From: Tribonema minus
Lineage: Eukaryota; Sar; Xanthophyceae; Tribonematales; Tribonemataceae
Length of the DNA: 64,000 nucleotides
Direction: 5' to 3'
NCBI GenBank assembly: GCA_017506865.1
Contig: JAFCMP010000029.1
Location: forward strand, 124,001-188,000
Below are positions 12,731-64,000 of this stretch, piece after piece (the stretch's first letter is position 1; every line of letters starts with the position of its first letter). A model generated the notes under the pieces. The model was not told the DNA's origin and did not search any database. It worked only from the letters and a program-made list of their open reading frames with translations. Position numbers and translations under genes: made by a program.

Positions 12731-15700
12731 TCACGGAAGCACATCGTGCACCCGCACGACGCGATCCACGCCGCCCACCGTCACCAGCCGCCGCCCGTCG
12801 CACGTGAACCGGACGCACGCGACATGCCCCACGTGCCCCCCGGGCACCTGTGCGCCGCCCCCAAACACCCCCTCTCCCGGGGGGGCGGGCTGGGGGGGCC
12901 CCTTGTGCCCCCCGACGGGCGGCGAGACCGACTGCAACGATGGCAGCGGCGACGGGGGCACGGCGGGGTATGGGAAGACGCGCAGCGTGCCGTCTGCATA
13001 GCCGCATGCAAGCAGACCGCGCGATGATGCGTGCGCGGCGGTCACGGCGGGCGCCGCGCCGGACTCTTCAAGTTGAAGTGCGGGCCATGCGCGCTGCATG
13101 GGCCAGCCCACCGACAGCGTCCACTGCGGCCACCTGCGGGTGCCACAGCGTGCAGTGAGCAGCGCGCGCGGGAGGGGGGGGGGGGGGGGGGGGTCATGCG
13201 ATGCGATCTGAGCGGCGTACGACAGCGGATTGGCCCATTGGTTCGAGGTGCATGTCGCGCAGCTGGTTGCAACGTGCGTGTCAGCGCTTGTATGTGTTGC
13301 TGTCCTACTCATGCTAACGGCTTGAGCATGCACAACGGGTGCTGTAACGGGTGCGGAACTTGTGTTGCGTGTGTGTGGTGCGGCACGACTGGCAGCTGCG
13401 TTTGGCGCGGCTGGAGATAGTCTCGTGTTTTGCATCATCAACAACCTCACAAGCTGCAGCCGTCTCTATACAGTTTCGCGGCGCTAAATGGGTGATACTC
13501 TTGTGCTGCATAGTCAACACAGCTCCGCACCATCGTGCGTTTACATACACGTCTCTTGCAAACATACAAAACACGACATACCTCAGCAACGCAAGTATAC
13601 GCAATTGTTGCAAACATACAAATCACGACATACCTGAGGTGCTTCAGCTGCGCCTCTATGGCCAGGGCAGACCCTTCCAGCGCACTGTGCCGCATGAGGG
13701 TGCCATCGAGAGCGCAGCTCTGCACGTGCCTGTGAGGTCAACGGCACGTCAACGGCACGACGTTTTATACACGATCGCTTGTGAGCATGCTTCGCATTTG
13801 CTGTGAAGGGGTTGTTGGTGCATTGCAGCAGCCATTGTGTAATTCTGCGCGTGCCATCACAGCGGTGACCTTGTCCTGTTCAACCTGCGGTATCTACCAA
13901 AGTGTGCTGTACATTTGCGGCAACTTCATCTGGGCCTGAACGTTGTTATACTCTGTGATCCCACGAGCATCGCGCTGTAGTGGCAACAATCCCTTGCCAG
14001 CCAGCCGAAATACAGGGAACACAAACAAACTGGGCAACCGTGTTTTGTGTTGACTCACAACAGCCACTCGCAGTGCTGTCAAACATTCAATGCATTGCAG
14101 CTGATTCTTGCGCTTTTGCCCCGCTTAAAGGCTCGCACGGCATCAACTGCAGGTGCTGGCACTTGCGCAGCACAGCATGGGATTATTTGGTCTCGATGGG
14201 TGCCACGAGCCTTGCGGCAAAGCAACTGAGCTTATTCAATTGCGAGCGCTCCTCGGCTCAAATGACGAACCCAATTGGTCATCTTAGCAGCCAATATTCC
14301 TTGACACAGCATCTGGGCCGCTGTGTCTCTCGCAGCTCAATTGTACACACTTCTACTTGAAGAAGCAAGTGCGAGCTAGCTGCCAGAGTGGGCGCGGACA
14401 GACTGCATGCACACGCTCCTACATCAACATATAAGTGCGAGCTAGCAGCCAGAGCAGGCGCGGACAGAATGCGTTGCAGCGCGCGCGACACTCACTGCGA
14501 GTCGTCGGAGTAGTCTATGGCAATGACGGGCGCCGTGTGCCCCTGGCAGCGGCAGCGCAGCCCAAAGCTTGGGACGTCGTACACGTACACCTGCGCGCGC
14601 AGGGGGCAGGGGGCATTGCGTGTTAAGGTTGAAGGTATCAATCCAGCTCTTGTCAATGGGGCAGACGCGATGTCAATGGGGCAGGCGCAAAGAGTTGAAC
14701 AGTGCCCCCGTTGCAGGGCGTGCGCTTCACCTCACACCCTAACTTCAAACCGGAATCTAACCCCAAACCTTAACCCAAACCCTGATCATGCGCACTGCGG
14801 CGGGCGAGCGCCCCTGCGCAACAAAACAGAAGGCCTGCATTGCGTGTGAACCCGCCTGTCTCTGCGCCGGCACTGATCCCGGTGACAAAACGCTGCTTTT
14901 TGCAGTGCCACCCATGCCTTGCGGCTGGCTGACTGGCGCTCCCGGGGCGTCACAAGCCAGAGCGCCTCGAACTTCCCCGGCAACCACCGCCTCATCACCT
15001 GCTCAGCAGCGCTCCTCACCTTGCCGTCGTGCGACGCGAACCTTGACTTTAATCCTAAACCCTATTTCGAACCCTGATTATGTGCGGCATCACTGCGGCG
15101 GGCGAGCGCTCCTGCGCAACCAGCGCCTCACGCAGTCCCCTAGCTGCAGCAACGCTCATCACCTGCTCAGCGACGCTCCTCACCTTGCCGTCGTGCGACG
15201 CGAGCGGCCCTCGCGTAGTCTCCTAGCCACAGCAACGCTCGTCATCACCTGCTCAGTGACGCTCCTCACCTTGCTGTCGTGCGCCGCGAGCGCAAAGCTG
15301 CAGCACCGCTCATTGGCCATGCAGCAGCGCTCCTCGCCTTGCCGTCGTGCGAAGCACGTGGCCCTCACTGTCTCCTAGCTGCACTTTGGGCTCGCCAAGA
15401 CGCTGGGGAGCCACGGCCAGGTACGTATACCTATAGTGCATGCGTATACCTACCCAAGCAGCAGTACGCTCATAGGTCATGCAGCGACGCTCCTCACCTT
15501 GCCGTCGTGCGACGCGAGCGCGAAGCTGCGCCCGTCCGGCGCGAACGCGGCGGCGCGCACCCAGCCGCGCGAGTCGCGCCCCTCAAAGGCCACCGCCAGC
15601 GTGTCCGCCTCAAGCACCCAGAACGCGCCGTCTCTGCGGCCCTTGCCGTCGCCGGCGCCCACAATGAGCCGCCTGCCGACGCGCACACAGGGAAGTGGTG

Positions 15701-18700
15701 GTCAGTGCTCAGAGAGGGGTTGGCTACTTCAAGTTGAAGTTGTGTGTTCGCGTCAAGCACCCAGAACGCGCCGTCTCTGCGGCCCTTGCCGTCGCCGGCG
15801 CCCACGACGAGCCGCCTGCCGACGCACGAGGGAACGAAGGTCAGTGCTCAAAACGGTGTTGCCCCCATGGCTACTTCAAGTTGAAGTTGGATGTCCGCGC
15901 CGGCGCCGACGCCAAGCCTCCCGCACATGTGAGGTGGGGCAGCGTCAGCCGCAGCGTGATCTGGGAAAGTGCAGCAGTGCTCAGGGGGACAGAGTCTCAT
16001 CAATACTTCATGTTGAAGTAAGGCAATGCACAGAGAGCGCGCGTTGTCTCGGCAGCCCCCTGCCATTGCCGGCGCTGCCGATGACCTCTGCTGACACGCA
16101 CTGGCAATGTGCAGCAGTGCCCAGGGACAGCGTCTCGTCAGTACTTCAGTTGAAGTGAGGCATAGCACAGAGAGTACGCGCCGTCTCGACAACCACTTGC
16201 CATCGCCGGCACCGCCGACGACGTCTGACAACGCGCAATGGGATGGCGTCGGACGCGGTGAGAGCGTGACGTCAGACGCAGTGAGCTTAGGTTTAGGGCT
16301 AGGGTGAGGTGGTGCTTAGCGCTAAGGAAAGTGCACTCAGTTGAGGTTATCAGGAAGGTGCCGCAGCGCCTGCAGTTGCCAACGCTGACGGGAGGGTGCC
16401 TGACAGTGTGATCTGGGATTCATAGTCAGTACAGCTGTCTCTCGTGTCTCTGTGTCTGTGTCATGACTTCAAGTTGAAGTGCTGAAGAAGCATTACAGAG
16501 ATCATGTCGGCGGCCTTTGCCGTGTCTTGCTGCAGCCGCGACTCACAGCTGAAGCGCTGACACCAACAGCAGCACGTCACTCAAGCTCATCAATATGTTG
16601 AGCGTGTGAGATGCCACAGTTCTGCAGAGGGCAGTGACCACCCTAACCCTAACCCTGACCCTAACCCTCAGCAAGTCGCAGCGGTTTCACAAAGCTAGTG
16701 CGTACCTGCCGTCAGGGGACCACGCGACGGCTCTGCAGGGGGCGGTGAGCAGCGCCTTTCGAAGCACGCGCCCGTGCGATACGCTCCAGACGCGCACGGT
16801 GCAGTCTGTCGCATGATGATGACAAGAAGGGGGTAGGGGGGTGGGTGCGAGTAGTGAGCAATGGGGGGGGTGACGGGTGAGAGGGGGGGGGGGAGTCACA
16901 CCTAGAAAATTATTTCTAATGCGCTTCTGATGCTTGAAATCACTTGCATAGACTTTTAAATTTGTACTGCGTTACATTTGAATTTGGCTATTGACGCGTG
17001 CACGCAGCCAGTGCCCAAGCTGCTGGGAAATAAAGCTTCTGGGAAATGGCACAGCCTCCAGTTTGTCCCCCCTTCCCCGTTCCCCGCTGCTGAGGCCTGC
17101 AGGCGCTCTTACTGTAAGGGAGTGAACATGCCCTAGCACACCGTTGATTTGCAAGGTCAAGTAGCTGACAAATCTGTGACATGAATGCTCTACACAACCG
17201 CCGTGCCACACCAATGTGGCAAAAGCGTCTTGCTGAATCGCCTCACTGGCATTCACGACGCAGTGTTACTGGAGGTGTAACATTGCGACTCCTGCGTCGC
17301 GTCACCAACACCCAATCTGCCTCGGACTGTGCGGCAGCTGAGCGTTGACACACAGTGTGGCTCACCGTCGCCCGTCGTGACAAAAGTGTCGGCATCCGTG
17401 GGGTGCACTGCCAGGCCCCTGGCAGGGCCGGCGTGGTGACCTTCGTGCAGCAGCACCGCCGCGCCGCTGGTGCGCAGAAGCTCGTATATCTGCAGCATTG
17501 GACCGGCACAAAATAGAGTTAGGGTTAGGGTTAGGTTCAGATTTAAAGCTAGGGTTAGGGAAAGCCGCTGACGCGCAGCACCGCCGCGCCGCTGGTGCGC
17601 AGAAGCTCGTATATCTGCAGCATTGGACCAGCAGAGGTTGGGATTGGCTCTAGGGTCAGGGTTAGGGGTAGGATGAGCCGCTGGTTTGCAGAAGCTCGTG
17701 TATCTGCAGCATTGGACCAGCACAGGTTAGGGTTCGGGTGTAAGGGCCAAAATTATAATGAGTGGTGGCCGCTGGTGCGTAGCAGCTCGTAGATCTGCAG
17801 CATTCCACCAGTACAGGTTGGGGTTAGGGCTACGGATGGGGTTAAGGCCAGGGTCAGGTTAGAGTCAGGATTAGGGTTAGGGTCAGGTGCTGGCACGCAG
17901 CAGCTCATTTATCCGCATTGGACCAGCGCAGGTTAGGATAAGGGTTAGGTTTAGGGCCAGAGTTAGCATTAAAGTTGGGGTTAGATTAAGCCGCTGGTGC
18001 GCAGCAGTAGCATATCTGCAGCATTGGACCAGCAAAGGTTGTGAAACTCATCAATCAGCGGTGGGCCAGGCACCAAGGGACTTGGGTGCAGTCAAGCAGC
18101 TGCTGGGGAGTTCCGCAAAAGCTGGGCAGGGTGGCAGTGGCAGTGGTAGGAGTGGTGGAAGTGGTAGCAGCATTGGTAGCTGGAGAGGGGGGGGACGACA
18201 TGCGCTTCAGCGCACCCTGTGTGCACTGGTAGCCATCCGCTACTGGTATGGTGTCTATGCTGCACATACTCTATGCGAGACAGGATGTTTCGCCCCTCAA
18301 GCGAAAAGAAAATAAAGCACAAAGGGATCGATCCCGGACGCGCACGGCTGCCGATATCCCCAGTCGACTTTGCGTTTGCTTTCTTCCTTCAACGCAGGCC
18401 GCCTTACGTGACATGAGCCCTCAACGACTTCACCTGCACGTACTGCGATACGGCAGCAAATTGAGTGCGAGCGCTCAAAGCCGCACCAATTTCTCACCTC
18501 TCCCCCGGCGGTGGCGGCCGCCATGCGGACAATGTCGCGTCCCGCACTCGCCGCTGCGACGGCGCGCACGCTCGCACGCAGCGGCGCCGGCATCACCTCC
18601 GGGGCTGCAGCAGTGCACACGTGGCCATAGAGCAGTTGGTATAGCTCGCAGAGGATGATTATATGGGTTGAATTTGGCAATTGAAGTTTGACGGCGCGCA

Positions 18701-21700
18701 TGCCCGCACGCAGCGGCACGGGCATAACCTCCGGGGCTGCAGCAGTGCACATGTGGCCATGGAGCATTGGTATCGCATAGAGCATTGGTATCGCAGGCGT
18801 TGATGCTGCGCTGAAGTTCAGGTTGGGAGTTGAAGTTTGACGGTGCGCAGCGGCTCGGGAATCACCTCCGGGGCTGCAGCAGCGCACACGTGGTCGTCGA
18901 GCATTGGCATCACTCGCAGACGCAGATCATATGGGTTGAATTCGGCAGTTAAAGTGTGACCACGTGCACGCACGGCCGCAGCTGTGCGGGCACTGCAGCA
19001 GTGCACACGCACCAGTGCCACTGGTATGGCGCAGGTATGAAGTGAGGTTGATATTAGTATTTGGTGAAGCTGACAGCGTGCGCGCCTGCACGCAGCGGCG
19101 CGGGCACCCCCTCCGGGAGGGTTAGGGTTAGGGTTAGGGTTAGGGTTAGGGTTAGGGTTAGGGTTAGGGTTAGCAGCAGCGCGCACACACCGCATCACTG
19201 GTACAATGGATGCCTGGGTCGAGTGTGTGTTGGTAAGGGTTTGAAGTTTTTGGGTTCGAGCTGCCAAAACTGCAGACGTTTGCCGTGACCTCACACGTCA
19301 ATTCTTGTGCTAAGTTATCCGCCAGGATAGATTCAAGAAAGCCACCGGCTCTTGTGTGAATACTGCCTAAGCTGCACCGGCGGACCCGCTCCCTGACCCT
19401 CATCCCTACCCTAACCCTGACCCTAACCCTATATTTACTTTCCAGCTCAGTGGATGAAATCAGCTGTGCGCAATGCGAAAAACGCAGCGCCACCTGTCGC
19501 GGCTACTTCGCAAGCACGAGCGAGTTGAACTTTGGTTGCTGTGACTCACCCGCAAGGTCGTAGATCTTCAACTGCTCCAGCTGCAGAGACCACAACTTCA
19601 CCAAGCCATCTTGGCCTCCGGTGACGACGCCCCCTTCATATGAGGCGATGGCGGTGACTCCTCCCTGATGCACGGGCAACAGGTGCGGATTAGGATAAAT
19701 GATAAATGATACTTATAAGAGAGAAGATGGTCATTTTCTTTGAGCGGTGCTCTCAATGGAACAAAAGCGATCGTTGCGAGGTTTACCAGAGTCACCAGCA
19801 CGGCAGCAAAACATGGGCTGTTGCACAAGAACAGCTGACCGCACGCGACTCCAGTCCAAATCGTGGGGCTAGGGTTACGCCATAGTGTACCCTTGCTATT
19901 CTAACACTGCCACCGTAACTAGTGTCATGTATCGAGTGGCGCTGTCCAGGGAGTACCAGCGGCGCACAGGTCGTGTTCGTCTGCGACAATGGTGGCAGAA
20001 CCAAGTGGTAAGCTCAATGGTAAAATGTGTCTTGACTACCACTAGTCGAGTGGCGTTGTCGAGCAGGGGCCACAGAAAGCCGAGCGGCGCACAGGGCTGT
20101 GCTTGATGGTGACAATGATGGCAGAAACAAGTGGCGAGCTCAATGATGAAGTGTGTCCTGATGAGCACTGCCCACCGCGTGCGCCAGAACAGGGGTGTGG
20201 CATCTTCCACGCCACACCATGCCCCATGCCTGCCCAGCTGTGCCACAACTACCACTGCCTGTGAAGTGTGCCAGAGGCATGACACTGGCGTCCGTTGGCC
20301 GAGGCACAGTACACGTATACCTATCATGGCCACCTATGCGCACAAACCAGGCGCATAAGACCTATACCTGCCATGACTAAGTGTGTACCTACCAGGTGAA
20401 GGGTTAGGGTTAGGGTTAGGGTTACCTACCAGCCGAGGCGCGCTTTGCGTCGTTTGCAACGCCACGCCATACCTATACCTGCCACGACATTTACCCGCAA
20501 GCGCGCATGTACCTGCCATGACTACCTATACGACCACCAGGCGTAACCACCCCTATACCCATCATAAACACCTGTATACCTACCAGGTGTGCCGGAGGCA
20601 CGCGCTCCGTCTTTTGGCCGCGCTGCACGATATCTATACCTGCAACTGAGGATACCCACCAAAGTGTGTGCCTGCCATGACTACCTGTATGCCCGCCAGG
20701 CGTACCTATATGTACCATGCCTATACCTATTATAAACACCTATATACCTACATACCAGGTGTGCCAGGGGGCGCACTCCGTCTTCCGGCCACGACCGCAC
20801 GCTATCTACACCTGCAATTACTAGCATTCAAAATGTGTCTACATGCCACGGCTAACGCTCACCAGGCGTACCACACCTATACCTAAGCACCTGTATACCT
20901 ACATACCAGGTGTGCCAGGGGCGCGCGCTCCGTCTTGCGGCCCCGCCACACCAGCAGGTGTCCGCTGGCCATGCCCGTCAGGAACTTTCCCTGGAACGGT
21001 CCCGCGGGCACCGCCGCGCCGCACAGCGCCGTTCCCTTGCCCGCCTCTGGCTGGCCCTCTATGAGCCCCAGCTTTGCGGTGAGGCTCCGGCCCTGGTGGC
21101 AGATACGCGTGATCAGTATGGTGCTGTATGTGGCATGTGAAACCTAACCCTGATCTAGTGTTGACCCTAGTTCTAACCATAAGGTTCTGGTCACGGGGGC
21201 AACAATGACGATGGGAAGTCTGGAATTCGGCCACCAAGAGGCTCAGGAAAACAGGTCTACATAAAGTGCAGGAGGTTGGACTTCAGCGTTTGCAGGAACA
21301 TACGCAAACTGCAATGCGCCCTTGAAGCTACTGATAGTCCTGTAGCTACATGCACTGCGCATGGTGCGATAATATCATTTGGTTGGAGTTCGGCTTAAAG
21401 TTTGGATCAGGGTTGTACATAACCTGCACAGGCTGTGCGCCTGTCTGCTAAGGCACCCGCTCTGGCACTTGGTGAGTGCATAATGCATCTTTGTCGCCAG
21501 AACAAGCGGGCCATCTGGCACTTGGCACTGCACCAGAGCCTCACGCTTGCTGAGGTTTGCATCTGTTGCCTGATCGAAGCAACGAGGTTTGCTTGGCGCT
21601 GCTGAGGGTAAGCGTTGGGCCAGGATTGAGTTCGGGTAGGGTTAGGGTCAGCGCCATCCCGCCTGCATGATCGCTGCTGCGCACAGCAACTGCGTGAGAG

Positions 21701-24700: not shown

Positions 24701-25924
24701 CTGAAGTTTAGTTTGTGTGCTGCACGATGCTTGACGCCACTCAGTGCGCCAGCAGCAGCGGCCGCGCACACTGGCGCGAGAAGCGTGACTGTAAAACCCC
24801 CGCAACTGCGAACCCTAACCCCAACCCTAGCTCTAACCCTAACCCTAACTGCGCACCTGCAGCTGGTCGCGCGCGAAACGCTTGGCGAACCGCTGAGCGT
24901 TGCGCTTTCGACTGTACAGAGCCACGTCGCCGCCGGCTACGCTCGCCAGCTCGCCCGATGCCACGTACGCCAGACTGCTCCTGCAACGCAGCTCAACACA
25001 CGCATCGGCGCGGTATGGCGGTGTGCTGTGTGGCCACTGGCAGTGCGACTGCATGTTTTCTGACGGCGGCGCAAAGAGAATTGTCAACGTGATTGTGACA
25101 GACTCACAAGTGTGCGTTGTGGTCACTGGCAGTGCGAGTCCATGACATGTGATGATGACACAAAGAGGGCATTGTAGTTGTAACTGTGACAAATGCCAAA
25201 GAGTGACTGCCGATGGCTGCATCATCATCAGCCGCAGCTTGAAGTGAACCTCCTAAAACACTGGACCGGCACAAGGACAAACCCTTTTCGATTTAGCAGT
25301 GATGGTGTTTCTCGGAGCCGCTCACGGGACCGCTGCTGCATCAGCACATAACATCGGGGCAGGTGGGCCATCCTGACATTTATTCTGCTGTTTGTCGCGT
25401 TTGTTCTACTCATCGCATGCATCATGAATGCGCCGTCGCACTCCCAGTGCATCATACACAACGCATAATGCTGGAGCAGAGCGCTGCAACCCACCCGCGG
25501 CGCGCCGAACGCTGACCTGGCGAGCGCCAAGCGTCAACCGTAAGAGGCGACGCAGCAGCGCGTCTCTCCTGAAACTTCAGTCTGGCTACACAGCTCCAAG
25601 CTGCCACTTCTAGTCACCGTCTCATGGCCTCAGTTTCCGCTCACCCCTGCGCCAGCTGCATGCAGCCGTGCGCCCACCGCAGCGCCGGCGCCTCGGGCAC
25701 AGGCGCAGACGGCTCTGCAGAAGCGCCTTCCGCGGAACGATCCGCCCGCGGAGAACTATCCGAACGCGACGCGCGCTTCTGATCCATGCTGCTGGCTGCG
25801 TCCCAGGCGGCGGGCTCTGAGCGCTGCTCTCGCGCATAGCTGGGTTCGACCATGTGCACGCTGTCCGTCCAGCGTCGCCGCCGCACGGCGGCGGATTCGA
25901 CGAAGGCGTCTTCGGGTGCGAGCG
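12731..25924 (-). CDS. EML: EML gene: third HELP-WD40 unit and C-terminus (14 exons)
   Basis: Exons, 5' to 3': 25645-25924 (linker plus HELP start), 24857-24980, 23842-23955, 23057-23175, 21857-22010, 20907-21092, 19550-19664, 18498-18604, 17366-17489, 16706-16805, 15498-15672, 14496-14590, 13634-13729, 12731-13133. The linker is long, charged and Ser-rich. HELP is degenerate: [12 protein letters not shown] then [20 protein letters not shown]. Landmarks: [137 protein letters not shown] and [16 protein letters not shown]. The last exon also carries a Pro/Gly-rich insertion of about 40 residues before the final blade ([15 protein letters not shown]) and ends VVRVHDVLP. All donors here are GT. 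About 730 residues. Units 1 and 3 share the phase-2 intron inside HELP; units 2 and 3 share the phase-0 intron before VY(I/V)YD. Confidence 0.9.
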
Positions 25925-55900: not shown

Positions 55901-58900
55901 CGGAGACAGAACGCGGAATGGTGACGTGCTGTAGCGTTACGAGGTCTGAGCAGCGCTGCTCAGTCGTTGCCACACAGTGTTGCTGAGCGCTGCCACATTA
56001 TGGCACACGTCAGCGCCCATCCCGCACTGACATGACCTCTGCCCGTCGTAAGTAGCGAGAAACAAATACTTCAAGTAGTTGATGCAAGCGTTATTAAGCG
56101 TTGCCATGAAATCTTGCACTGACGTAACCCTTTGCCGTCGCAAGTGTTACCGAGAAATACCAATGCTTTAAGTGGCTGAAGTGTTGCAGTCCTCGCCTAA
56201 GATCTCGTACAGCTCCCCCGCCTCCATCGCCACCAGCATGCAGCGGTTGCTCGCCGTTGAGAACAGAGTTACTGGGGAAGGTCATAGGACTGATAGATAG
56301 CTACAACAATGCCCCACAGTGTATCCTGAATGTGTGTTAAAGTAATGAGGAATACTGCTACTTCAAGTAGTTGAAGTGTTGCAGTCCTCGCCTGAGATCT
56401 CGTACACCTCCCCCGCCTCCATCGCCACCAGCATCAACGTTGCCACGCCGCTGAGACTGGAACCACTGGGGAGGGTTTTAGAACTGATAGCTGGCTGCAA
56501 CAAAAGCGTATCGCAGTGTCTCATGAATGTGTTGTCAAAGTACTGAGGAATACCAATGCTTCAAGTAGTTAAATGTTGGATTTATTGCCTGAGATCTCGT
56601 ACAGCTCCCCCGCCTCCGTGGCCACCAGCATGCGGCGGTTGCTCGGCGCCCAGCTGATGGAGTGCAGGGCGTGCACGCCGAGCAGCGCTGCGCCGGGCAG
56701 GCTGCGCGTATCAAAGCACGCCGCCAGCTGTAGCGAAGGGCCGCGCCACAGTTGAACCTGCGAGCGCACCCGACGTTGCGGCGCACGCAAGAAGAGACGG
56801 CTGTGAAAAGAAAAGGGGTGAATTGGCAAAGGCGGCGCAGCCTGCAACTCTGTTCTTAGCGCTTCAATAGCCTGTGTAAAGGAAGACGTGCACGCCGAGC
56901 AGCGCTGCGCCGGGCAGGCTGCGCGTGTCGAAGCACGCCGCCAGCTGCAGCGAGGGGCCGCGCCATAACTAAACCTGCAAGCACAGGCGACGTTTGTGGT
57001 CCAGGTACAAAGTCGTGGTCATGGCAATTCTAGGAGGGGACTCAGCACCAGCAACTCTGTTCTGAGGTGTGCGCGCGCCGACAAAGCGCAGCTTGTGCAG
57101 GAATGTGCGCTGATGCTGAGCAGCGCTGCGCCAGGCAGGCTGCGCGGCAGGCTGCGCGTGTCAAAGCGCGCCACCCGCTGAAAGTGAGGGGTAACCTTAG
57201 GGTTAGGGTTAGGATTAGGGTTAGCCGTCAAAGACCTGCGAGCGCATCCGCCGTTGTGGCACTCGCAGCAAGCAGAAGGCTGCAAAGCATTGAGGCGGAA
57301 GTTGCACGGCAACGCAATCATCATCTCTCTCTCTTAGGTATGCGCGCTGCAATAGCATACTTTGATGCGTCAACACACGTGTAGTGTGCATGATGTATAT
57401 CTGTGTGTATGAAACTCGAAACACTCTGAAGGTGAATGAGCGCGGCAATACATTTGATATATCGAAGGCACAGCCTGTGCAGGGAAGTGCGTTCGTGCTG
57501 AGCAAGGGTTAGGGTTAGGATCAGGGTTAGGATTAGCGTTAGGGTATGGACCTTGCCGTCAGCAGCGCCGGTCATCAATCTGTTGAGTGTGCAGCATGCG
57601 TTGCGGCTCGTTGCTGGTGAGACTGCGCCTGTGTTGAAGACGCGCAGCACACCTGACGCCGTGGAGGGCACCACAACCCTAACCCTAGCCCTAACCCTAA
57701 CCCTAGGACTCGAATTCGAACCACACACCTTGCCATCAGCAGCGCCGGTCACAAAGGCGCCACCGGCGCCTGACGCCTTGGAGGGCATGCAAGGGGCTCA
57801 ACCTTCACCCTAACCCTAGCCCTCACCTAACCCTGGGTTTTGAGATTACGCACCTTGCCATCGGCGGCGCCGGTCACGAAGGCGCCGCCAGCGCCCGCGG
57901 CGATTACCGTGACCGCCGCTGCGTGGCCCTTCACGCACCTGCGGAAGGGCGGGGGCGGCGACGCAACGCGCAGTGAGCACAAGTGACGCTCGCACAGCGC
58001 AATGTCGAATTTGAGGCATGTCGAGCTGCGCCACCGTGCTGAGGGGGGTAGGAAACGCGCAAGGGGTATGCATACAAGGTGCTGCTCCAAGTTTGCTTGC
58101 CAACACCGCCAACAGCCTTGGCCAGCAGCACTGCCACAGCTGCGTGAGATGCGGCAGTCTCCGTGTTGAGAACTTCACTACCAATATGGCGATCATTGCG
58201 CCCCTTTTGCCAATGATGCAGCGGCAAGCAACATAGAAGTACTCTGTGGTATTGAGGTGGCAGCGCTCCACGCTTACTTGGTGCAGTTGCGCTGCTCTCA
58301 CAGCCACGCATCGCCGCTACCGCCGCCACTGTGAACTTCAACTCTGTGTACTAAAACTCCAGTTGTGACAATATTGTATTGTTAGGTTTGTAATCAGGGA
58401 AGCTGCAAAGTACAAGGATGGACGTGTTGAGGTTACTTGGTGCGGCTGTGCCCCTCCCACAGCGACACGTGGCCGCTGCCGCCGCCCGTCAACTTCAACA
58501 TCAAGTTGCAGTCACGGAGTCTTGCTTCTCTCCAGAGTGCACCGTCGCAAATACGGCAAAGCATTTTGTCCGAGGCAGCACTGCTTGCATTGTGCAGTTG
58601 CGCCCCTCCCACAGCGAGACGTGACCGCTGCCGCCGCCCACGAATACTGTAGCAGCACTGTGCTGCGGTCGCTGTGAGTTCAAGTGTTTCGTCCAATGTT
58701 GAAGTAGCACTACTCAGCGCTCAGCACTTACTTGGTGCAGTTGCGCCCCTCCCACAGCGAGACGTGGCCGCTGCCGCCGCCCGTCGCGACGGCGCCGCCG
58801 TCAAATCCCAGGCAGCACAGCTGCGTCTGCTGCAGGCCCGTGGGGCCAAAGACCCCCGTGGATCGCTCAAATCCTGGGCCTGGTGGATATGCGCGTGAGG

Positions 58901-61900
58901 ATTTTAGAAAGTTAAGCCAGCAAAAAGTAGCACACGTTTTGACGGGGCGACGTTGACGTGGAGTACAGTGAAGTGATTTATCAAGAAGTCATCTTGCTCA
59001 AATACGTCAAAACACATCGGCTCATCGGTGGTGCACTTGGTGCAACTTCACCAGTGCAGCAGAACCGTGCGAAGCACCCAACCGGGCAGTAGTAAAATGA
59101 CGCGTGTTGTTGCCCGGAAAGGCCACCTTGCAAAGATGAGTCATCTATAGATGATGATGCTTCTGTAACACCAACGAGAGCTAGCCTCGCTGCAATACCA
59201 GGAAGAGTTGATCTATGATGCAGTAGAGATGACTGTTCGTTCCAGATAATCATGGAACACGCCTCTCTTCTCTTATGACAAGCGTTTGCCGGCTGCAAGC
59301 TTCACCCGCAGTCAGAACGTCACATGATCCACTGCTTCAGGGTGGCAACTCTTGCATCTACACTATAAAGCACTTTCTGTCCGCCAGTGTCACCTGTGCT
59401 GGAACGGTCCCAGAACGTTATGTGATCCACTCCGCAGGTGGATTGTTTTTCCAACACTAAAAAGCACTATCTGTCTGCTAGTCTCACCTGTAATGCAACG
59501 GTGCCAGAGCGTTACGTGATCCACTCCACAGGTCGCAAATTTCTTACTCTAAAAAGCACTTTTTGTCTGCCAGACTCACCTGTAATGCAATGGTGCCGGA
59601 ACGTTACGTGATCCACTCCACAGGTGGCAACTTTGTTGCTACACTACTAAGCACTTTCTGTCTGCTAGTCTCACCTGTGCTGGAACGGTCCCAGAGCGTT
59701 ACGTGATCTACTCCGCAGGTGGCGAACCTGTCGCCCCCCCCTGCAAAGGTTACGGCTATGGTAGGAGCGCCGGCGCCGCTGCACGTGGAGGTGAATATGG
59801 TCGTCTGGCTAGGCCAGTGGCGCACCTGCACAGCAGAAAAAGCACACAACCACTCATATAAGCAGGCATAGGTTTTCATACTCGATCAATAGCAATACAA
59901 TGCACATGATGAAACAAGCACTGACACAGGATTGGGGGGGGGGGCTTAAATTTCAGCATCGGGAAAAGAGTCGACAGGCTGATTTAGCAGTAACCCTACC
60001 CTTAACCCTAGTTCACGCCAGTGGCGGACCTGCACAGTAGATGCAGCACGTGCTTATTCACACGTCGCTCTGCATGATGTTTTTCGAACGATCCGCTACA
60101 CACAGTCAACAGCAATATGAAGCACACAATAAATCAAGCACAGCAGCAGAGCAAATGGTGGATGGGGGGGGGGGGGGGCTCTTGAGCCAACTTTGGCTTT
60201 TGATGCAGCTTCGGGCAGAACGACAACAGGCTGAGCTAGGTCTGGCTTGAGGCAGTGGGACGCGAATGATTCACCCATTGCATACCAATGCAATAGTTTA
60301 AGGGATGATGGCAACTGGCATGAAAAGAAAACTGCGACAAAACCATATGATCTCAGAGTTTTCCGCAAAGTTGGCACAAACTGGAGCCAAATGCGGGGAT
60401 CAGCAAGATGCCGTTTTGAGAGGGGGGGAGCGTGCTCGTGGGCAGGTATTCCCACCTCGCTCGATCACACGAGACGGGAACTGTTGGGGACACAGCAACG
60501 CTGCCTTAGGGTTAGGGTTAGGGTGGGGTCAGCTAACCTAACCCTAAGCTTGACCACGTTAGACGGGAGAGCTGTTGGAGACGCGGCAACGCCAGTCACC
60601 CACATGGCGTCTAAGCGGGTCGACACCACCGCATAAGAAACTTCTGGCCCCGGCTCCATGGCGAAGCTCAGAGCTAGCTAGCGCAGCAAGCTTTTTCTTT
60701 CACTGCTGATCAGTTGCGAGCAGTTTCTCACCGCAAGGGAGACTTCCGGCCCCGGATATTCTTGCAAATATGTAGGTGAGCACTTTCCACCACTTTCTCA
60801 CCGCAAGGGAAACTTCCGGCCCCGGCTCCATGCCGACGCTCAGCGTGAGCGCGGCGTCCGGCGAGAAGCGCACGAGCGCAATGCCAGAGCCGTGCACGCC
60901 CCTGAAACTGCCGAGCAGTGTGCACGTCTCGGCGCACCACACTGCTAGCTGCGCACAGCACAACACGGTCAGGCAAGATGAGTATGCGAGTGCACAAGTA
61001 CGCACGAGGGTACGCCGATAAGGCTTGAATGCTTTGCTTGCACCCTAGAAGGAGGCGATGGCTGAGCCGTGCACGCCCCTGAAGCTGCCGAGCAGTGTGC
61101 CCGGTTCAGCCATGCCACTTCGCTAGCCCTTCAGTCAAGGCCCACCGCCAACCGCAGGTCAGTCATACGGGGGGGCTCTGACCCCCGTCATGCACGCCGG
61201 CATCGAGGCTGCCCGTGATCACATCAGAGCCTACCTACATAATTTTATAATATCAATATCATGGGCTACACACTCATCGGCCAGCGTCAGACAACCATGA
61301 TGTGGCAGCACGAGACACACGCCGACACTGCTGCATCAGCGCCTGCCTCAACCTTCGGCCGCACGCATTCGCGCATCGGCGGCACATTGCAAATGTGCAT
61401 TCGCCTTGGATCGGCGACCCACTTGCCCCGTCGCCACAACAACTCTCGCCCGCCCGCTTCTACTCTCAGATCGAGGCACGTGATCGCGTCCGTGTGGCCC
61501 TGGAAGTGCCACAGGCATTCGCGCATTGGCAGCACACTGCAACAGTGTACATACCTTTGGTCGGCGCCCCAGATGCCCCGTCGCGACGACAACGCGCCCC
61601 CCCTTCTTCTACACCGACGTCAAGGCACGTGATCGCGTCTGTGTGGCCTTGGAAGTGCCGCAGGCATTCGCGCTTCGGCAGCACACTACGAGCGTGCACT
61701 CACCTTGGGTCGCCGCCCCAATTGCCCCGTCGCGACGACGACTCGCCCTTCCTCTTCTACACCGACGTCGAGGCACGTTATCGCGTCCGTGTGGCCCTGG
61801 AAGTGGCGCTGCGACCCGCACTCCGCGCCGCCGCCGCGGCCGCCGAGCCGCAGCGCGACGCCGACTGCGCCGACGGGGTAGATGACGTCGCCGGCGGGGG

Positions 61901-64000
61901 TGTACTTGGCGCTGCCCCTGAGGAACGACGGGGCAGAGTTGAAGAACGGGAGGAGAGTCACAAGACTTGCTCCTGGACGTTTACAATTCAAAGTCAGGTC
62001 TATGAACACACGGTGGCCGTCACTGGCGGGGAAGGTAGATGACGTCACCCTTCGGGGGTGTACTTGCGCTGCCCCTGAGGAGCATGGGAGTTGAAGAAAG
62101 AGGGGGAGAGTCACAACACTTGCGGTTGTGCGTATCGGCGCGCGTGCAGGGTGGATGGATGTCATTGGCGGGGGTGTAAATGGCGCTGCCCCTGAGGACT
62201 CCATTGAAGTTGAAGAAGGCAAGGAGAGTCACTGAATGGGCTGCTGTTTCAGTTCAAGGCGGAATGGTGAGCACACGGCGGCCTTGCGCGATCGGCGGAC
62301 CGCACTGCCCCCCCGCCCCCCTCAACACACACACCGCCAGACTGCTGTTCATGGTTGCTTGCTGAGCCATGCGGTAGGGGTAGAGTTAGGGTTTGCGCTG
62401 AACATATACGGCCGAGCTCTTGCACAATTGGCGAAACATTCGCGCCCCCCCCCTAAACCCTAAACCTAGTCGTAACCGTAACGTCGTTAGGCCTCATGGC
62501 TGCTCTGTCACACGGGGACGCGGCCCGAGCAGGTCACAACGGCCAGCGCTGTGCACGCGCAGTGCTCAGGCACGCCACACGCTTACAAGCGTCGCGCGTT
62601 GCAAGCTGCGGACGAGGCTGTGACGCATCGCCGCACCTCGCGGCAGTGCCGGCACCGCGGCGCGCTGCTGTCAACCATGTTCATACTTATCAGTCTTTAT
62701 GCATGCTCAGCTCTGTGCAGGAGCACAGAAACAACGCCGGCTAGTGCACAAACCACCAGTAGCTGCAGCCCACCGCCGCACCTCGCGGCGTTGCCGACAC
62801 CGTAGCCGTACGCCCACTCCAGCGACAGCGCGCACGCCGCAACGCTGTCTTTCCTCCCTCAAACTACATCCATGCGGAGCCTCGTGCATTGCAAACTGCA
62901 GTAAACTCTGTGTGACAGATCAACCCACCTTGCGGCGTTGCTGGCGCTGTACCCGTATGCCCACTCCAGCGACAGCGCAAGCTTCTGAAGGCATCAAATG
63001 CCATGAAGACATGAACCCTAACACTAACCCTCGCCCATAAATCTAACCCTGCCCTAACCTACCGCCCTACCTTGCGGCGTTGCCAGCGCTGTAGCCGTAC
63101 GCCCACTCCAGCGACAGCGCGGACGGCGGCGCGCCGCGCTGCGGCCCGCCGCGCGGCAGCAGCGTCGGCTCCGTGAACGCCGCCGCGTTCTGCCACTGCG
63201 CCTGCGGCTCCAGCGTCTGTGCGTACACATACGTACATACCACAGGAGATGATGGTGAATAGCGAGTGCACCAGCCGCAGGGTGTGATGACATGCTGCTA
63301 GAGTAGGTCACAGGTGGTGCTTGTGTCAAGATTCACAGATGGTCGCATGCAGTTGGCGACGTGTGCGGGGCAATGCGGCGGCGCACTGCAGCGAAGATGC
63401 GCGCCAGCAGCAGCGTCAGCCTCGAAAAAGCGGCCGCGTTCTGCCACTGCGCTGGCGGTGCCAGCTTGTGCCGGCAGCAGGGCAACACTTGACGCGTCAG
63501 CTGCAGCCTGATGCTGCAACAACCGGCGGGTGTGAGTCGCAACTGCAATCACATTCATGAAAACCCTGTGCCTGGCCCCCTCACTGAGCAACCTGCATCT
63601 CTCTCCCGAAGCGAAGGCCCCTCCCTCAAAGGGGCCCCCTGACTGCCGCCCGCAAACAAAAACGTCAACATCATTATCACAACTTCAAGCGCCTACACGC
63701 ACCGAAGCGAGCCCCCTGGCCTTAATGGCGGCGGCCTCCGTGCACCCCGCCTCCAGGTCAACCACATACATACATGCCCTGTGCAAGGCTCCTCTCAAAG
63801 GGACCCGACGGCCGCCAACAGACAAAACTTCAACATCCGCATCACAACTTCATGCGCCTACCACCCATTCACGCACCGAAGCGAGCCCCCTGGACTCTAT
63901 GGCGGCGGCCTCCGTGCACCCCGCCTCCAGGTCTGTCGCCGCAACATACCCCTCTTCAGCACCCCCCTCTGCGACGTCAGTGCTCAGGGTCTGCCCCTGC
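12731..64000 (-). CDS. EML: EML5/EML6-like microtubule-associated protein, three HELP-WD40 units, 5' end outside window
   Basis: One giant gene of at least 51 kb is read leftwards. I placed 47 exons (listed under the three units) from 63877-64000, open at the window edge, to 12731-13133, which ends in TGA. Spliced coding length is about 6.5 kb, near 2,180 residues, split over 46 introns. Consecutive exons keep frame at 45 of 46 junctions, which independently supports the model. Every segment follows the EML order: an acidic linker, the HELP motif (L-EW-YGY.. then a Y-GE-IY core), and then the two WD40 propellers. EML proteins bind microtubules; EML5 and EML6 carry three such units, as here. 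A cytoskeletal or flagellar role is family inference. I considered three separate genes. No start or stop lies between units, and linker exons join units in frame at 50.2/48.6 kb; the 28.4/25.9 kb join is the one unresolved junction. Introns are full of exon-edge copies and telomere-like tracts. Confidence 0.92.
13176..13196 (+). repeat. Poly-G run (poly-C in transcript) near an acceptor
   Basis: A run of about 18 G on the plus strand lies 45-60 nt upstream of the last acceptor of the EML gene (13134), read as a poly-C tract in the transcript. Confidence 0.9.
15000..16240 (-). repeat. Exon-edge ladder around exon 15498-15672
   Basis: Downstream copies at about 15325-15355, 15250-15300, 15165-15210 and 15000-15045 repeat the ALASHDGK end and the GTGAGG donor. 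Upstream copies at about 15745-15825, 16030-16090 and 16165-16240 repeat the acceptor and [15 protein letters not shown], decaying with distance. Confidence 0.9.
17570..18035 (-). repeat. Exon-edge ladder above exon 17366-17489, alternating with telomere-like DNA
   Basis: Five copies (about 17575-17635, 17680-17725, 17770-17812, 17893-17925, 17995-18035) of the acceptor and first codons ([11 protein letters not shown]) lie at about 100-110 bp spacing. Every spacer is a degenerate TTAGGG tract, so the telomere-like DNA belongs to the duplicated unit. Confidence 0.92.
18685..19120 (-). repeat. Exon-edge ladder above exon 18498-18604
   Basis: Four upstream copies (about 18690-18750, 18840-18890, 18965-19000, 19080-19115) repeat the acceptor and [11 protein letters not shown]. 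The outermost abuts the longest telomere-like tract of the window. Confidence 0.9.
19117..19173 (+). repeat. Interstitial TTAGGG tract, longest in window
   Basis: Nine near-perfect TTAGGG units lie in the intron between exons 19550 and 18498. It joins directly to a copy of an exon acceptor edge on its left. Confidence 0.95.
20255..20805 (-). repeat. Exon-edge ladder below exon 20907-21092
   Basis: Copies at about 20755-20800, 20583-20630, 20420-20465 and 20260-20320 repeat the [10 protein letters not shown] end. Spacers are an imperfect CCTATACCTACC-rich repeat, which continues the sequence just beyond the true donor. Confidence 0.85.
22150..23500 (-). repeat. Exon-edge ladder around exon 23057-23175
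   Basis: Five downstream copies (about 22865-22945, 22690-22770, 22495-22600, 22325-22400, 22155-22215) repeat [20 protein letters not shown] and the donor at about 170-185 bp spacing, with a shared spacer. Two upstream copies (about 23300-23335, 23455-23500) repeat CQLPEALR with the acceptor. Confidence 0.95.
23985..24162 (+). repeat. Cluster of telomere-like words, both orientations
   Basis: GGGTTAGGG-type words at about 23990-24010 face CCCTAACCC-type tracts at about 24075-24162, in the intron between exons 24857 and 23842. Confidence 0.85.
26065..26360 (-). repeat. Exon-edge copies above exon 25645-25924
   Basis: Two copies (about 26065-26105 and 26310-26360) keep the acceptor GCAG-CGCTCGC and the first codons ALAPEDAFV. 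Telomere-like tracts lie beside each (26023-26045, 26265-26300). Confidence 0.85.
27440..28255 (+). pseudogene. Possible decayed coding remnant, opposite strand, inside the longest EML intron
   Basis: In one plus-strand frame this stretch gives protein-like runs broken by stops: [19 protein letters not shown], then [41 protein letters not shown], a further TGA, and [15 protein letters not shown]. Further on, another frame gives [20 protein letters not shown] and [18 protein letters not shown] recognise no family. The composition differs from the Pro/Leu-rich translations of the pyrimidine-rich DNA around it. It could be the remains of a transposon or retrocopy inserted in the intron, or chance. 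Confidence 0.25.
28394..48558 (-). CDS. EML: EML gene: linker and second HELP-WD40 unit (18 exons)
   Basis: Exons, 5' to 3': 48434-48558 (acidic linker), 46531-46703, 45294-45397, 43385-43570, 42357-42489, 41532-41687, 40480-40607, 39951-40040, 38940-38999, 37341-37513, 35930-35987, 34868-34961, 33873-33946, 32569-32625, 31523-31630, 30350-30506, 29523-29722, 28394-28488. HELP reads [16 protein letters not shown] then [20 protein letters not shown]. Landmarks: [203 protein letters not shown] and [19 protein letters not shown] donors follow exons 48434, 40480, 33873 and 32569. About 720 residues. The 3' border of the last exon is uncertain: GT sites at 28393 give the wrong phase, whereas a GC site at 28400 gives the right one. 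Confidence 0.9.
28680..28900 (-). repeat. Exon-edge copies above exon 28394-28488
   Basis: Copies at about 28680-28745 and 28850-28900 repeat [15 protein letters not shown] with the acceptor region. A short copy of the 3' end lies about 500 bp downstream, at about 27885-27910. Confidence 0.85.
29739..29760 (+). repeat. Poly-G run (poly-C pyrimidine tract) before acceptor 29723
   Basis: About 20 G on the plus strand lie 15-35 nt before the TATAG acceptor of exon 29523-29722, so the pyrimidine tract here is essentially pure C. Confidence 0.9.
30020..30950 (-). repeat. Exon-edge ladder around exon 30350-30506
   Basis: Downstream copies at about 30235-30290, 30130-30175 and 30020-30065 repeat the AWPPQRDGT end with donor. 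Upstream copies at about 30608-30648, 30745-30825 and 30920-30950 repeat [13 protein letters not shown] with the acceptor. Confidence 0.85.
32563..32568 (-). other. GC splice donor GCGAGT
   Basis: It joins ASADCK to VYIYDTK, the EML spacing. A GT 12 bases further on is also in phase and would add four residues (ASAA), so this one is less certain. Confidence 0.65.
33867..33872 (-). other. GC splice donor GCAAGT
   Basis: Exon 33873-33946 ends ..HKYIQ in phase 0, joining DIKWSADS. The GT at plus 5 is out of phase. Confidence 0.85.
34480..35330 (-). repeat. Exon-edge ladder around exon 34868-34961
   Basis: Downstream copies at about 34635-34680 and 34528-34580, with a fragment near 34485, repeat [12 protein letters not shown] with a GTGCGT donor. 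Upstream copies at about 35113-35160 and 35280-35330 repeat the acceptor and VAARAVAYS. Confidence 0.85.
36050..37722 (-). repeat. Longest exon-edge ladder, around exon 37341-37513
   Basis: Seven clear copies and one decayed copy of the 3' part ([21 protein letters not shown] region) and donor stand below the exon. Their donor ends lie near 37188, 37017, 36868, 36692, 36544, 36389, 36237 and about 36057. Spacing is about 148-180 bp, and each copy brings the same spacer (AGGCCTTTAGTCTACTT, then TTGCTGAGCGCTG). One upstream copy (about 37672-37722) keeps the 5' part and acceptor. Confidence 0.95.
38540..38581 (+). repeat. Interstitial TTAGGG tract
   Basis: Six units, one with a G-for-A change, lie in the intron between exons 38940 and 37341. 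A CCCTAA tract of opposite sense lies at about 38187-38223 in the same intron. Confidence 0.9.
40474..40479 (-). other. GC splice donor GCGAGA
   Basis: This is needed to join WAIADADE in phase 0 to GLVSGGRDG. The next GT is out of phase. Confidence 0.8.
41140..41440 (-). repeat. Exon-edge ladder below exon 41532-41687
   Basis: Three copies (about 41398-41440, 41278-41320, 41146-41185) repeat GKLQPFYCI with a GTACAA-type donor, at about 125-bp spacing with shared spacer sequence. Confidence 0.9.
43752..44345 (-). repeat. Exon-edge ladder above exon 43385-43570
   Basis: Upstream copies at about 43752-43820 and 44135-44213 repeat [19 protein letters not shown] with the acceptor. Shorter ones at about 43975-44003 and 44310-44345 keep only GQQGL. 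Shared intronic spacer sequence (GTTGATTGAAT..) is repeated with them. Confidence 0.85.
44970..45215 (-). repeat. Exon-edge copies below exon 45294-45397
   Basis: Short copies of the exon end (LPLAAT) with donor-like sites lie at about 45185-45212, 45100-45115 and 44960-45000. Confidence 0.65.
45826..45885 (+). repeat. Interstitial telomere-like tract with inverted junction
   Basis: TTAGGGTTAGG turns directly into CCTAACCCTAA repeats, a head-to-head arrangement of telomere-like units inside the intron between exons 46531 and 45294. Confidence 0.85.
46798..47410 (-). repeat. Exon-edge ladder above HELP exon 46531-46703, with poly-G runs
   Basis: Four upstream copies (about 46798-46880, 46963-47048, 47145-47213, 47350-47410) repeat the exon's 5' part (RSIAAPS through DCDLVLEW) with the acceptor CTGCCAG-GTCCATCG. 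Between copies lie poly-G tracts of different length on the plus strand, poly-C in the transcript. Confidence 0.9.
47740..48822 (-). repeat. Exon-edge ladder around linker exon 48434-48558
   Basis: Downstream copies at about 48188-48245, 47885-47935 and 47740-47770 repeat the ARFAPM-PWHR end with the GC donor. An upstream copy at about 48770-48822 repeats [10 protein letters not shown] with the acceptor. Spacers between copies hold short CTACATGTACTGCAA-type tandem words (about 48000-48170). Confidence 0.8.
48428..48433 (-). other. GC splice donor GCACGT
   Basis: Phase 2 is required by exon 46531-46703 (R-SIAAPSD). The nearby GT gives phase 0. Confidence 0.8.
49805..50765 (-). repeat. Exon-edge ladder around exon 50154-50336
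   Basis: Downstream copies at about 49963-50040 and 49805-49865 repeat [14 protein letters not shown] and the donor GTACTT. An upstream copy at about 50675-50760 repeats SAWE-RGP-APAGE with the acceptor. Confidence 0.85.
50154..63216 (-). CDS. EML: EML gene: first HELP-WD40 unit (14 exons)
   Basis: Exons, 5' to 3': 63071-63216, 61704-61917, 60802-60948, 59675-59825, 58732-58879, 57854-57938, 56589-56757, 55392-55518, 55110-55240, 54346-54498, 53704-53903, 52581-52639, 51267-51411, 50154-50336. HELP spans the first two exons ([16 protein letters not shown], then [20 protein letters not shown]), followed by the blade motif [19 protein letters not shown]. Later landmarks are [149 protein letters not shown] and [17 protein letters not shown]. 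These align one-to-one with the EML order, including the EW-TYTCTLGF and FGKVHLFSYPC landmarks. About 686 residues. Donors after 56589, 53704 and 51267 are GC. The acceptor of 51267-51411 is placed upstream of the nearest AG because only that keeps frame. Confidence 0.9.
50780..51655 (-). repeat. Exon-edge ladder around exon 51267-51411
   Basis: Downstream copies at about 50960-51030 and 50782-50815, with fragments at about 51125 and 51195, repeat the YPASQAGQ end with a GCAAGT donor. An upstream copy at about 51600-51655 repeats the acceptor and the first codons ([13 protein letters not shown]). Confidence 0.85.
51261..51266 (-). other. GC splice donor GCAAGT
   Basis: Exon 51267-51411 ends CAG before GCAAGT. 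The next GT would shift the frame against exon 50154-50336. Decayed downstream copies keep GCAAGT. Confidence 0.85.
52648..52666 (+). repeat. Poly-G run (poly-C pyrimidine tract) before acceptor 52640
   Basis: A long G run on the plus strand lies immediately before the CCCGTCAG acceptor of the short exon 52581-52639. Confidence 0.9.
53230..54205 (-). repeat. Exon-edge ladder around exon 53704-53903
   Basis: Three downstream copies (about 53231-53275, 53420-53470, 53548-53570) repeat [10 protein letters not shown] and a GC donor (GCAAGT, GCAAGC, GCACGT). Two upstream copies (about 54023-54065, 54165-54200) repeat the first codons ([13 protein letters not shown]). Confidence 0.85.
53698..53703 (-). 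other. GC splice donor GCACGT
   Basis: The GT four bases on would give phase 1, but exon 52581-52639 ([11 protein letters not shown]) needs phase 0. One nearby copy has the stronger GCAAGT. Confidence 0.8.
54985..55038 (+). repeat. Interstitial TTAGGG tract
   Basis: About eight near-perfect TTAGGG units lie between the decayed exon copy at 54905-54985 and exon 55110-55240. Confidence 0.95.
56190..57255 (-). repeat. Exon-edge ladder around exon 56589-56757
   Basis: Downstream copies at about 56391-56447 and 56196-56262 repeat the 3' part (EAGELYEIS) and keep a GC dinucleotide at the donor. Upstream copies at about 56885-56975 and 57100-57255 repeat the 5' part ([16 protein letters not shown]); the outer one is split by a telomere-like tract at about 57190-57230. 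Confidence 0.85.
56583..56588 (-). other. GC splice donor GCAATA
   Basis: Exon 56589-56757 must end in phase 1 to join [11 protein letters not shown]. Only the GC at this position does so, no GT lies nearby, and two decayed copies also carry GC. Confidence 0.8.
57551..57780 (-). repeat. Exon-edge copies below exon 57854-57938
   Basis: Copies at about 57727-57780 and 57551-57585 repeat [13 protein letters not shown] and the donor. Each is separated by telomere-like tracts (about 57675-57712 and 57505-57545). Confidence 0.85.
58265..58655 (-). repeat. Exon-edge ladder below exon 58732-58879
   Basis: Three copies (about 58270-58330, 58433-58495, 58578-58650) repeat [12 protein letters not shown] plus the start of the donor region. 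The two nearest the exon are the most similar to it. Confidence 0.85.
59310..59630 (-). repeat. Exon-edge ladder below exon 59675-59825
   Basis: Four copies of the exon's 3' end, coding VDHVT-W, with a GTGAGA-type donor lie at about 59318-59345, 59390-59440, 59490-59535 and 59578-59630. They are spaced about 90-100 bp and joined by a shared intronic spacer containing AAAGTGCTT words. Confidence 0.85.
60620..61105 (-). repeat. Exon-edge copies around exon 60802-60948
   Basis: Downstream copies at about 60725-60760 and 60620-60655 repeat the exon's last codons (GPEVSL) with the donor area. An upstream copy at about 61045-61105 repeats its first half ([16 protein letters not shown]). Confidence 0.75.
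61400..62225 (-). repeat. Exon-edge ladder around exon 61704-61917
   Basis: Two clear downstream copies (about 61406-61512 and 61549-61672) repeat the segment coding [11 protein letters not shown] through the donor, at about 130-150 bp spacing. A fainter one may lie at about 61330-61385. Two upstream copies (about 62040-62085 and 62160-62205) keep the acceptor CCTCAG-GGGCAGCGC and the first codons of the exon. Confidence 0.85.
62630..63470 (-). repeat. Exon-edge ladder around exon 63071-63216
   Basis: Three downstream copies (about 62930-62985, 62781-62835, 62630-62665) keep the [13 protein letters not shown] 3' part of the exon and a donor. One upstream copy (about 63405-63470) keeps only the 5' part (AQWQNAAAF). 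None has both splice borders. Copies differ from the exon by substitutions and small indels. Confidence 0.8.
63877..64000 (-). CDS. EML: EML gene: acidic linker exon, partial at window edge
   Basis: This exon is open across the window edge and ends at a GTGCGT donor in phase 0. It reads [19 protein letters not shown], then [20 protein letters not shown], a low-complexity linker like those preceding the other two HELP motifs. Its 3' half is repeated at about 63703-63755 with the donor kept. Because linkers stand before each HELP motif, this could be either the N-terminal region or a link to a further unit outside the window. Confidence 0.7.

Follow-up and report, generated by a model that had tools for sequence, protein, structure and literature searches.

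One-sided copies of exon edges in the introns of an EML-like gene of Tribonema minus

The EML-like gene and its exon-edge ladders

The window analysed here is a 64,000 nt stretch of Tribonema minus DNA (contig JAFCMP010000029.1, positions 124,001 to 188,000 of the forward strand), from a genome of 158 Mb. Most of it is occupied by an EML-like gene with three HELP/WD40 units (12740..63201, minus strand), modelled as 47 exons and 46 introns by spliced profile alignment (own script) against EML homologues, including a paralogue from the same genome. The alignment modelled 54 exons, of which seven weak or terminal pieces were removed manually to leave 47; an earlier count of 47 was known beforehand. 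The exons sum to 6,029 bp (57-214 bp each, median 128) and the introns to 44,433 bp (81-3,486 bp each, median 940). The 5' end of the gene lies beyond exon 1, the 5' border of which varies among model runs and is uncertain, and the stop codon lies near 12731. For exon 14, the 3' end initially placed at 50190 is most likely at 50154 (GAG/GTACCT); both copies of this edge keep GAG/GTACTT. Seven modelled donors have GC, not GT (56589, 53704, 51267, 40480, 33873, 32569 and 29830). The two longest introns, 46704-50153 (about 3.5 kb) and 25796-28393 (about 2.6 kb), are those that join the units, and linker exons within them may be absent from the model.

Units 1 and 2 of the three were scanned with Pfam, and the domain order that marks the EML family, HELP followed by two EML beta-propellers, was found. 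HELP (PF03451) scored 29.8 bits in unit 1, where propellers PF23409 and PF23414 exceeded the cut-off; both EML propellers also exceeded it in unit 2, for which HELP was absent among the 25 families listed and the closest solved structure is PDB 4ci8 (EML1). The neighbours of the gene are ankyrin-repeat genes at 4302-5336 and 9290-10180 (minus strand), one of them with an F-box. Eight short, telomere-like TTAGGG/CCCTAA arrays (at least three units) are intronic across the gene region, at 19122-19169, 54994-55035, 38554-38577 and 45838-45861 plus four shorter ones; across 308 kb scanned there were 21. An Rfam search of the window returned no match at gathering scores.

Copies of exon edges were sought with 65 bp queries (40 bp of exon and 25 bp of intron) against positions 12001-64000 on both strands. 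At a score of at least 0.45, all 42 donor-edge copies of the EML gene lay in the intron downstream of their own exon and all 23 acceptor-edge copies in the intron upstream; none was found elsewhere in the gene or on the opposite strand. This is the polarity claimed in a preliminary description of the DNA. Noise starts at 0.40, where two distant donor matches and one reverse-strand match appeared, and the later sets hold in-place copies only. At this score 43 donor and 26 acceptor copies were in place, making 69 copies in 37 ladders (series of copies of one exon edge) at 26 of the 47 exons, with at most seven copies per ladder. The extent described earlier, at least 22 exons with one to eight copies in about 80 places, was thus upheld for the exons, whereas the copies and the maximum were fewer.

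All ladders in the edge scan lie on the minus strand and are given here from the 5' end of the gene. Exon 1 has one acceptor copy (63202..63452, its 5' border being uncertain) and two donor copies (62782..63070), and exon 2 has two of each (acceptor 61918..62191, donor 61405..61703). Donor ladders follow exon 3 (one copy, 60732..60801), exon 4 (three copies, each with CAG/GTGA, 59394..59674), exon 5 (three, 58278..58731) and exon 6 (one, 57728..57853). Exon 7 is flanked by one acceptor copy (56758..56974) and two donor copies (56197..56588), as are exon 11 (53904..54062 and 53232..53703), exon 13 (51412..51638 and 50790..51266) and exon 14 (50337..50749 and 49807..50153), the donor copies of the last being at 49966 and 49807 with the likely true donor at 50153. 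Exon 9 has a single donor copy (54908..55109).

Further downstream, acceptor ladders precede exon 15 (three copies, 46704..47202) and exon 17 (two, 43571..44204), and donor ladders follow exon 19 (two, 41282..41531) and exon 21 (one, 39780..39950). The longest ladder, with seven donor copies, is that of exon 23 (36238..37340), which also has one acceptor copy (37514..37710). One acceptor and two donor copies accompany exon 25 (34962..35146 and 34533..34867), exon 29 (30507..30814 and 30129..30349) and exon 36 (23176..23325 and 22701..23056). Single copies belong to the donor of exon 26 (33771..33872) and the acceptor of exon 27 (32626..32835); pairs belong to the acceptor of exon 32 (28489..28905), the donor of exon 38 (20584..20906) and the acceptor of exon 40 (18605..18873). 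Exon 41 has four acceptor copies (17490..18015), and exon 43 has one acceptor copy (15673..15815) and three donor copies (15184..15497).

Each copied edge and its adjoining intron lie head to tail beside the original, as tandem duplication across an exon border produces. Comparison of the whole window with itself by BLAST, which the preliminary description had proposed together with a check of orientation, gave 158 repeat pairs in direct and 68 in inverted orientation, six of the latter being no more than 2 kb apart, and the edge copies were on the same strand as their exons at 0.45. Intron length and the number of copies are positively correlated (Spearman 0.45, P 0.0015). In the six introns that hold both kinds of copy, the donor copies always precede the acceptor copies (6/6), and the elements of the ladders alone therefore cannot form a new exon.

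Insertion of mobile elements or introners could also place sequence of a similar unit size in many introns, and such a recurring size is seen here. Against this, at 0.45 the EML edges match nowhere else in the gene, and in a whole-genome search of two of the 37 ladders, the donor ladders of exons 4 and 23, each matched its own locus only, so that the dispersed family expected of an introner or transposon was not found for these two. Insertions are therefore given a negligible chance of being the source of the ladders.

Occurrence in other genes and preference for exon borders

The preliminary description had proposed a check in other large genes, and one-sided copies were also found in dynein heavy-chain genes elsewhere in the genome. 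One dynein heavy chain shares 81-82% identity with proteins from Phaeothamnion, Ectocarpus and Choristocarpus, which would probably place the organism among ochrophytes close to the brown algae. In four dynein heavy-chain loci (40 exons), 14/14 donor and 7/7 acceptor copies within their own gene were on the matching side, and three more acceptor matches were located in different dynein genes within the set. A third set combined an EML paralogue with four short dynein loci (27 exons) and gave three donor copies downstream and seven acceptor copies upstream; three matches departed from this pattern, two of them acceptor matches (within an exon and in another gene) and the third a donor match on the reverse strand. 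In an EML paralogue whose introns measure 309-1043 bp, a single ladder is present among 16 exons. The structure thus does not define a gene class, since ladders also occur in dynein genes and are nearly lacking from this long-intron paralogue.

A further paralogue at C9:313001-333000 (G000; L009, L010) has open frames of 817, 375 and 832 codons with a HELP match in each and hardly any nearby repeats; EML genes poor in introns and others rich in them occur together in this genome. Nearby direct repeats made up 4-39% of bases in 12 stretches of 10 kb picked arbitrarily from the genome, and in one of these (L021) 21% of bases were also in inverted repeats. The median array period in the 12 stretches was 209 bp, with a broader distribution (72 arrays), compared with 172 bp in the EML gene (52 arrays).

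In the four dynein loci the ladders take up 12% of the intron DNA, and in the EML gene 11,411 of 44,433 intron bp (26%). With the latter share, and with 24 of 55 EML and dynein arrays untied to a border, the earlier wording that the introns are built from ladders goes too far. Local copies were present at 48 of 188 random intron sites as against 37 of 94 exon borders (score 0.40, unmasked), suggesting that borders are at most moderately favoured and are not marked hot spots. The copies at random sites lay on the 5' side in 47 cases and on the 3' side in 26, with 29 matches elsewhere in the gene. Tandem copies are therefore general in these introns, and what is peculiar to the borders is the one-sidedness.

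When exons and exon-derived parts were masked, 31 of 55 arrays were tied to a border where 30% were expected (P 4e-5), and 19 of 38 at a strict setting (P 0.008); plain random placement does not predict this excess, which counts against it. Two looser counts, 29 of 37 arrays with a border when unmasked and 42 of 57 near a called copy when only the real exons were masked, were inflated and rejected, and the stricter masked count (31/55) was therefore used. Repeat coverage toward exons is flat, with no enrichment.

Content and decay of the copies

All 91 in-place copies at a score of 0.40 (69 EML, 22 dynein; 53 ladders) were extended from their border. Their spacing has a median of 153 bp, with the middle half at 132-185 bp (91 spacings, EML and dynein). 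The exon part of a copy has a median length of 52 bp, about 35% of the exon, and the intron part a median of 47 bp, reaching up to 360 bp. None of the 91 extends to the opposite border. Three further points of the preliminary description are borne out by these values, namely a regular spacing of about 90-185 bp, the duplication of intron spacer together with the exon edge, and the lack of any copy with both borders. In a model of random placement, units of about 152 bp include both borders in 15% of visible border events; about 9.5 whole-exon copies would be expected beside the 53 ladders and none was observed (P 1.6e-4).

The exon breakpoint tends to be shared among the copies of a ladder (median range 11 bp against 25 bp when permuted, P 0.0005), which suggests one founding duplication followed by growth of the array. 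The repeated duplication across the junction that had been proposed earlier is amended accordingly, to often one founding event and then array growth. A clear age gradient along the ladders was not seen; in 15 of 26 ladders the nearest copy was better than the most distant one. Between adjacent copies the exon part is less diverged than the intron part in 14 of 21 ladders (Wilcoxon P 0.024), which growth purely by copying from copy does not predict and which counts against that form of growth. Restricted to the homologous stretch, copy-to-copy divergence is 16.4% in the exon part and 24.5% in the intron part. An unrestricted comparison, in which the exon part seemed strongly protected (14.1 against 30.5%), was rejected as biased, since it ran past the exon breakpoint or the homologous intron.

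Divergence from the real exon and its intron is 13.8% for the exon part of the copies and 23.0% for their intron part; at codon positions 1, 2 and 3 it is 10, 11 and 21%. This pattern is as expected of a copy that decays neutrally while the exon is under constraint and the intron is not, and divergence of about 14% and 23% speaks against a recent haplotype or assembly duplication. There are nine stops in 1,574 codons, and 23 of the 91 copies are frameshifted. Neutral change of 8, 10 and 12% predicts 11, 14 and 16 stops (P 0.32, 0.12 and 0.03 for the nine observed); the count appears to agree with near-neutral decay at 8 and 10%, and poorly at 12%. With stops and frameshifts close to neutral levels, the copies were rejected as coding sequence.

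Most of the copies retain their splice site. GT or GC is present in 53 of 58 donor copies, two of the five exceptions being those of exon 14, where the border was mis-set, and AG in 29 of 33 acceptor copies. Scored with a matrix trained on the real sites of the same EML gene, these decoy sites have median scores of 15.7 (donors) and 14.7 (acceptors), compared with 17.8 and 14.9 for the real sites and −4.7 for random GT. Scores so near to the real ones are what would be seen if the copies were really spliced, as alternative exon ends or mutually exclusive exons. Such use is nevertheless highly unlikely, as none of the 91 copies has both borders, 23 are frameshifted and nine have a stop, and the exon part is about a third of an exon in median. 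Tandem exon duplication with mutually exclusive exons was rejected on the same absence of two-bordered copies and the same frameshifts.

The decoys had been described as real-looking and unpaired. The first part stands on the scores, and the second holds for acceptor decoys, which have one strong downstream donor where 7.9 are expected; this expectation includes the 34 of 94 strong intron donors that are themselves ladder decoys, and is about 5 without those. Upstream of donor decoys, however, acceptor-like sites are as frequent as in the background (52 against 49.1 expected), with at least one strong site for 28 of 55 decoys, and so the argument from unpaired sites is only half supported.

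The cores of the decoy splice sites have changed at 11 of 270 positions, compared with 139 of 1,630 neighbouring exon sites (P 0.010). This excess conservation is slight and suggestive at most, given the small numbers, the related ladders and the dependence on the neutral rate. It bears on whether decoys are kept by selection while the exon part decays, the ladders being a device that holds splicing factors (U1/U2AF) on long introns and steers exon recognition, or that gives regulated alternative edges. In favour of such a function, the cores have diverged by 4.1%, compared with 8.5% for codon positions 1-2 within those copies, and the difference persists with one copy per ladder (5/158 against 75/952, P 0.03) and from copy to copy (6/111 against 97/676, P 0.009); the score loss simulated under neutrality also exceeds that observed at 10% mutation (donors P 0.006, acceptors P 0.036). 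The signal is weak, however, and the ladders are non-independent; it fades at a rate of 8% (donors P 0.05, acceptors P 0.15), stops and frameshifts in the exon-derived parts are near neutral, and three donor copies, not counting those of exon 14, have lost the site, as have 4 of 33 acceptor copies. Selection for the decoys, and with it a role of the ladders in exon recognition, is considered unlikely.

Origin of the ladders and implications for splicing

The reading that we favour, at a probability of roughly 80%, is that border-straddling segments about 150 bp long were duplicated in a head-to-tail arrangement, leaving one-sided edges that splicing is predicted to ignore. Local tandem duplication would copy pieces of about this size across the introns, favouring borders little or at most moderately. 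A piece with one border would lengthen the intron and survive; it would be tolerated, since the exon remains complete and the added border is unpaired. If a piece included both borders, it would create a second spliceable exon and be removed by selection, and a founding duplication would often expand into an array. Each decoy lacks the other border of its exon, and for this reason splicing is predicted to pass it over. The tandem duplication put forward in the preliminary description is retained in so far as the copies are local, head to tail and one-sided, include spacer and are never whole exons, with the reservation that borders are favoured at most moderately.

The nearest published case found is a potato RdRp gene, in which a tandem duplication across an intron-exon border copied the 3' side of the intron and the 5' side of the exon (PMC4974935, from the portions of that paper available). 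The EML ladders resemble it in the border-crossing tandem duplication; however, one event there gave a new intron, whereas the EML gene has dozens of unpaired edges, of both border kinds, in existing introns.

The same paper, in its available portions, cites Rogers 1989 and Hellsten 2011 for intron gain by tandem duplication of exon sequence containing AGGT, a process that shares with the ladders a local tandem duplication involving splice sites (PMC4974935). The introns themselves could have arisen in this way, with the copies as remnants, and the copies are indeed tandem and carry exon sequence. Yet such a gain puts the copied donor edge at the next acceptor, which it becomes, and for the ladder-bearing introns this is contradicted by position, the nearest donor copy being 246 bp away; the copies lie away from the far end of the intron, the ladders also include native intron sequence, and there is no sequence hint of intron creation. 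This origin has a very slim chance of being correct. Internal gene duplications, with cases that include entire introns, were reported by Gao and Lynch 2009 (per the available portions of PMC4974935). These are like the ladders in being duplications within a gene that take in intron DNA, but unlike the cases with entire introns each ladder copy consists of one border and part of one exon.

In Ectocarpus, a probable relative, the median autosomal intron is 524 bp, mammal-like exonic splice enhancers are reported, and tandem repeats make up 3.35% of the genome and are distributed fairly evenly (PMC12477816, available portions). Long introns are common to both organisms, and no mention of exon-edge copies was found in the available portions of that intron account (PMC12477816). 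In the open literature, no description of ladders of one-sided exon edges as a general feature of introns was found, subscription journals being mostly outside the scope of that search. The earlier statement that no gene class with this structure has been described agrees with the open literature to this extent, though the organisation is not confined to one class, as the dynein genes show.

Exon definition, in which borders are paired across exons, would fit the sizes of exons and introns in this organism and, by analogy, the enhancers of Ectocarpus. The decoys beside real borders offer a natural test of how cells distinguish real exons. If splicing ignores these strong one-sided borders, they would be direct evidence for border pairing across exons in this lineage; if it does not, mis-splicing would have a large and hidden source in the ladders. 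The ladders represent one route of intron growth, and they also display a likely selective filter, by which edges are spared and whole-exon copies are removed.
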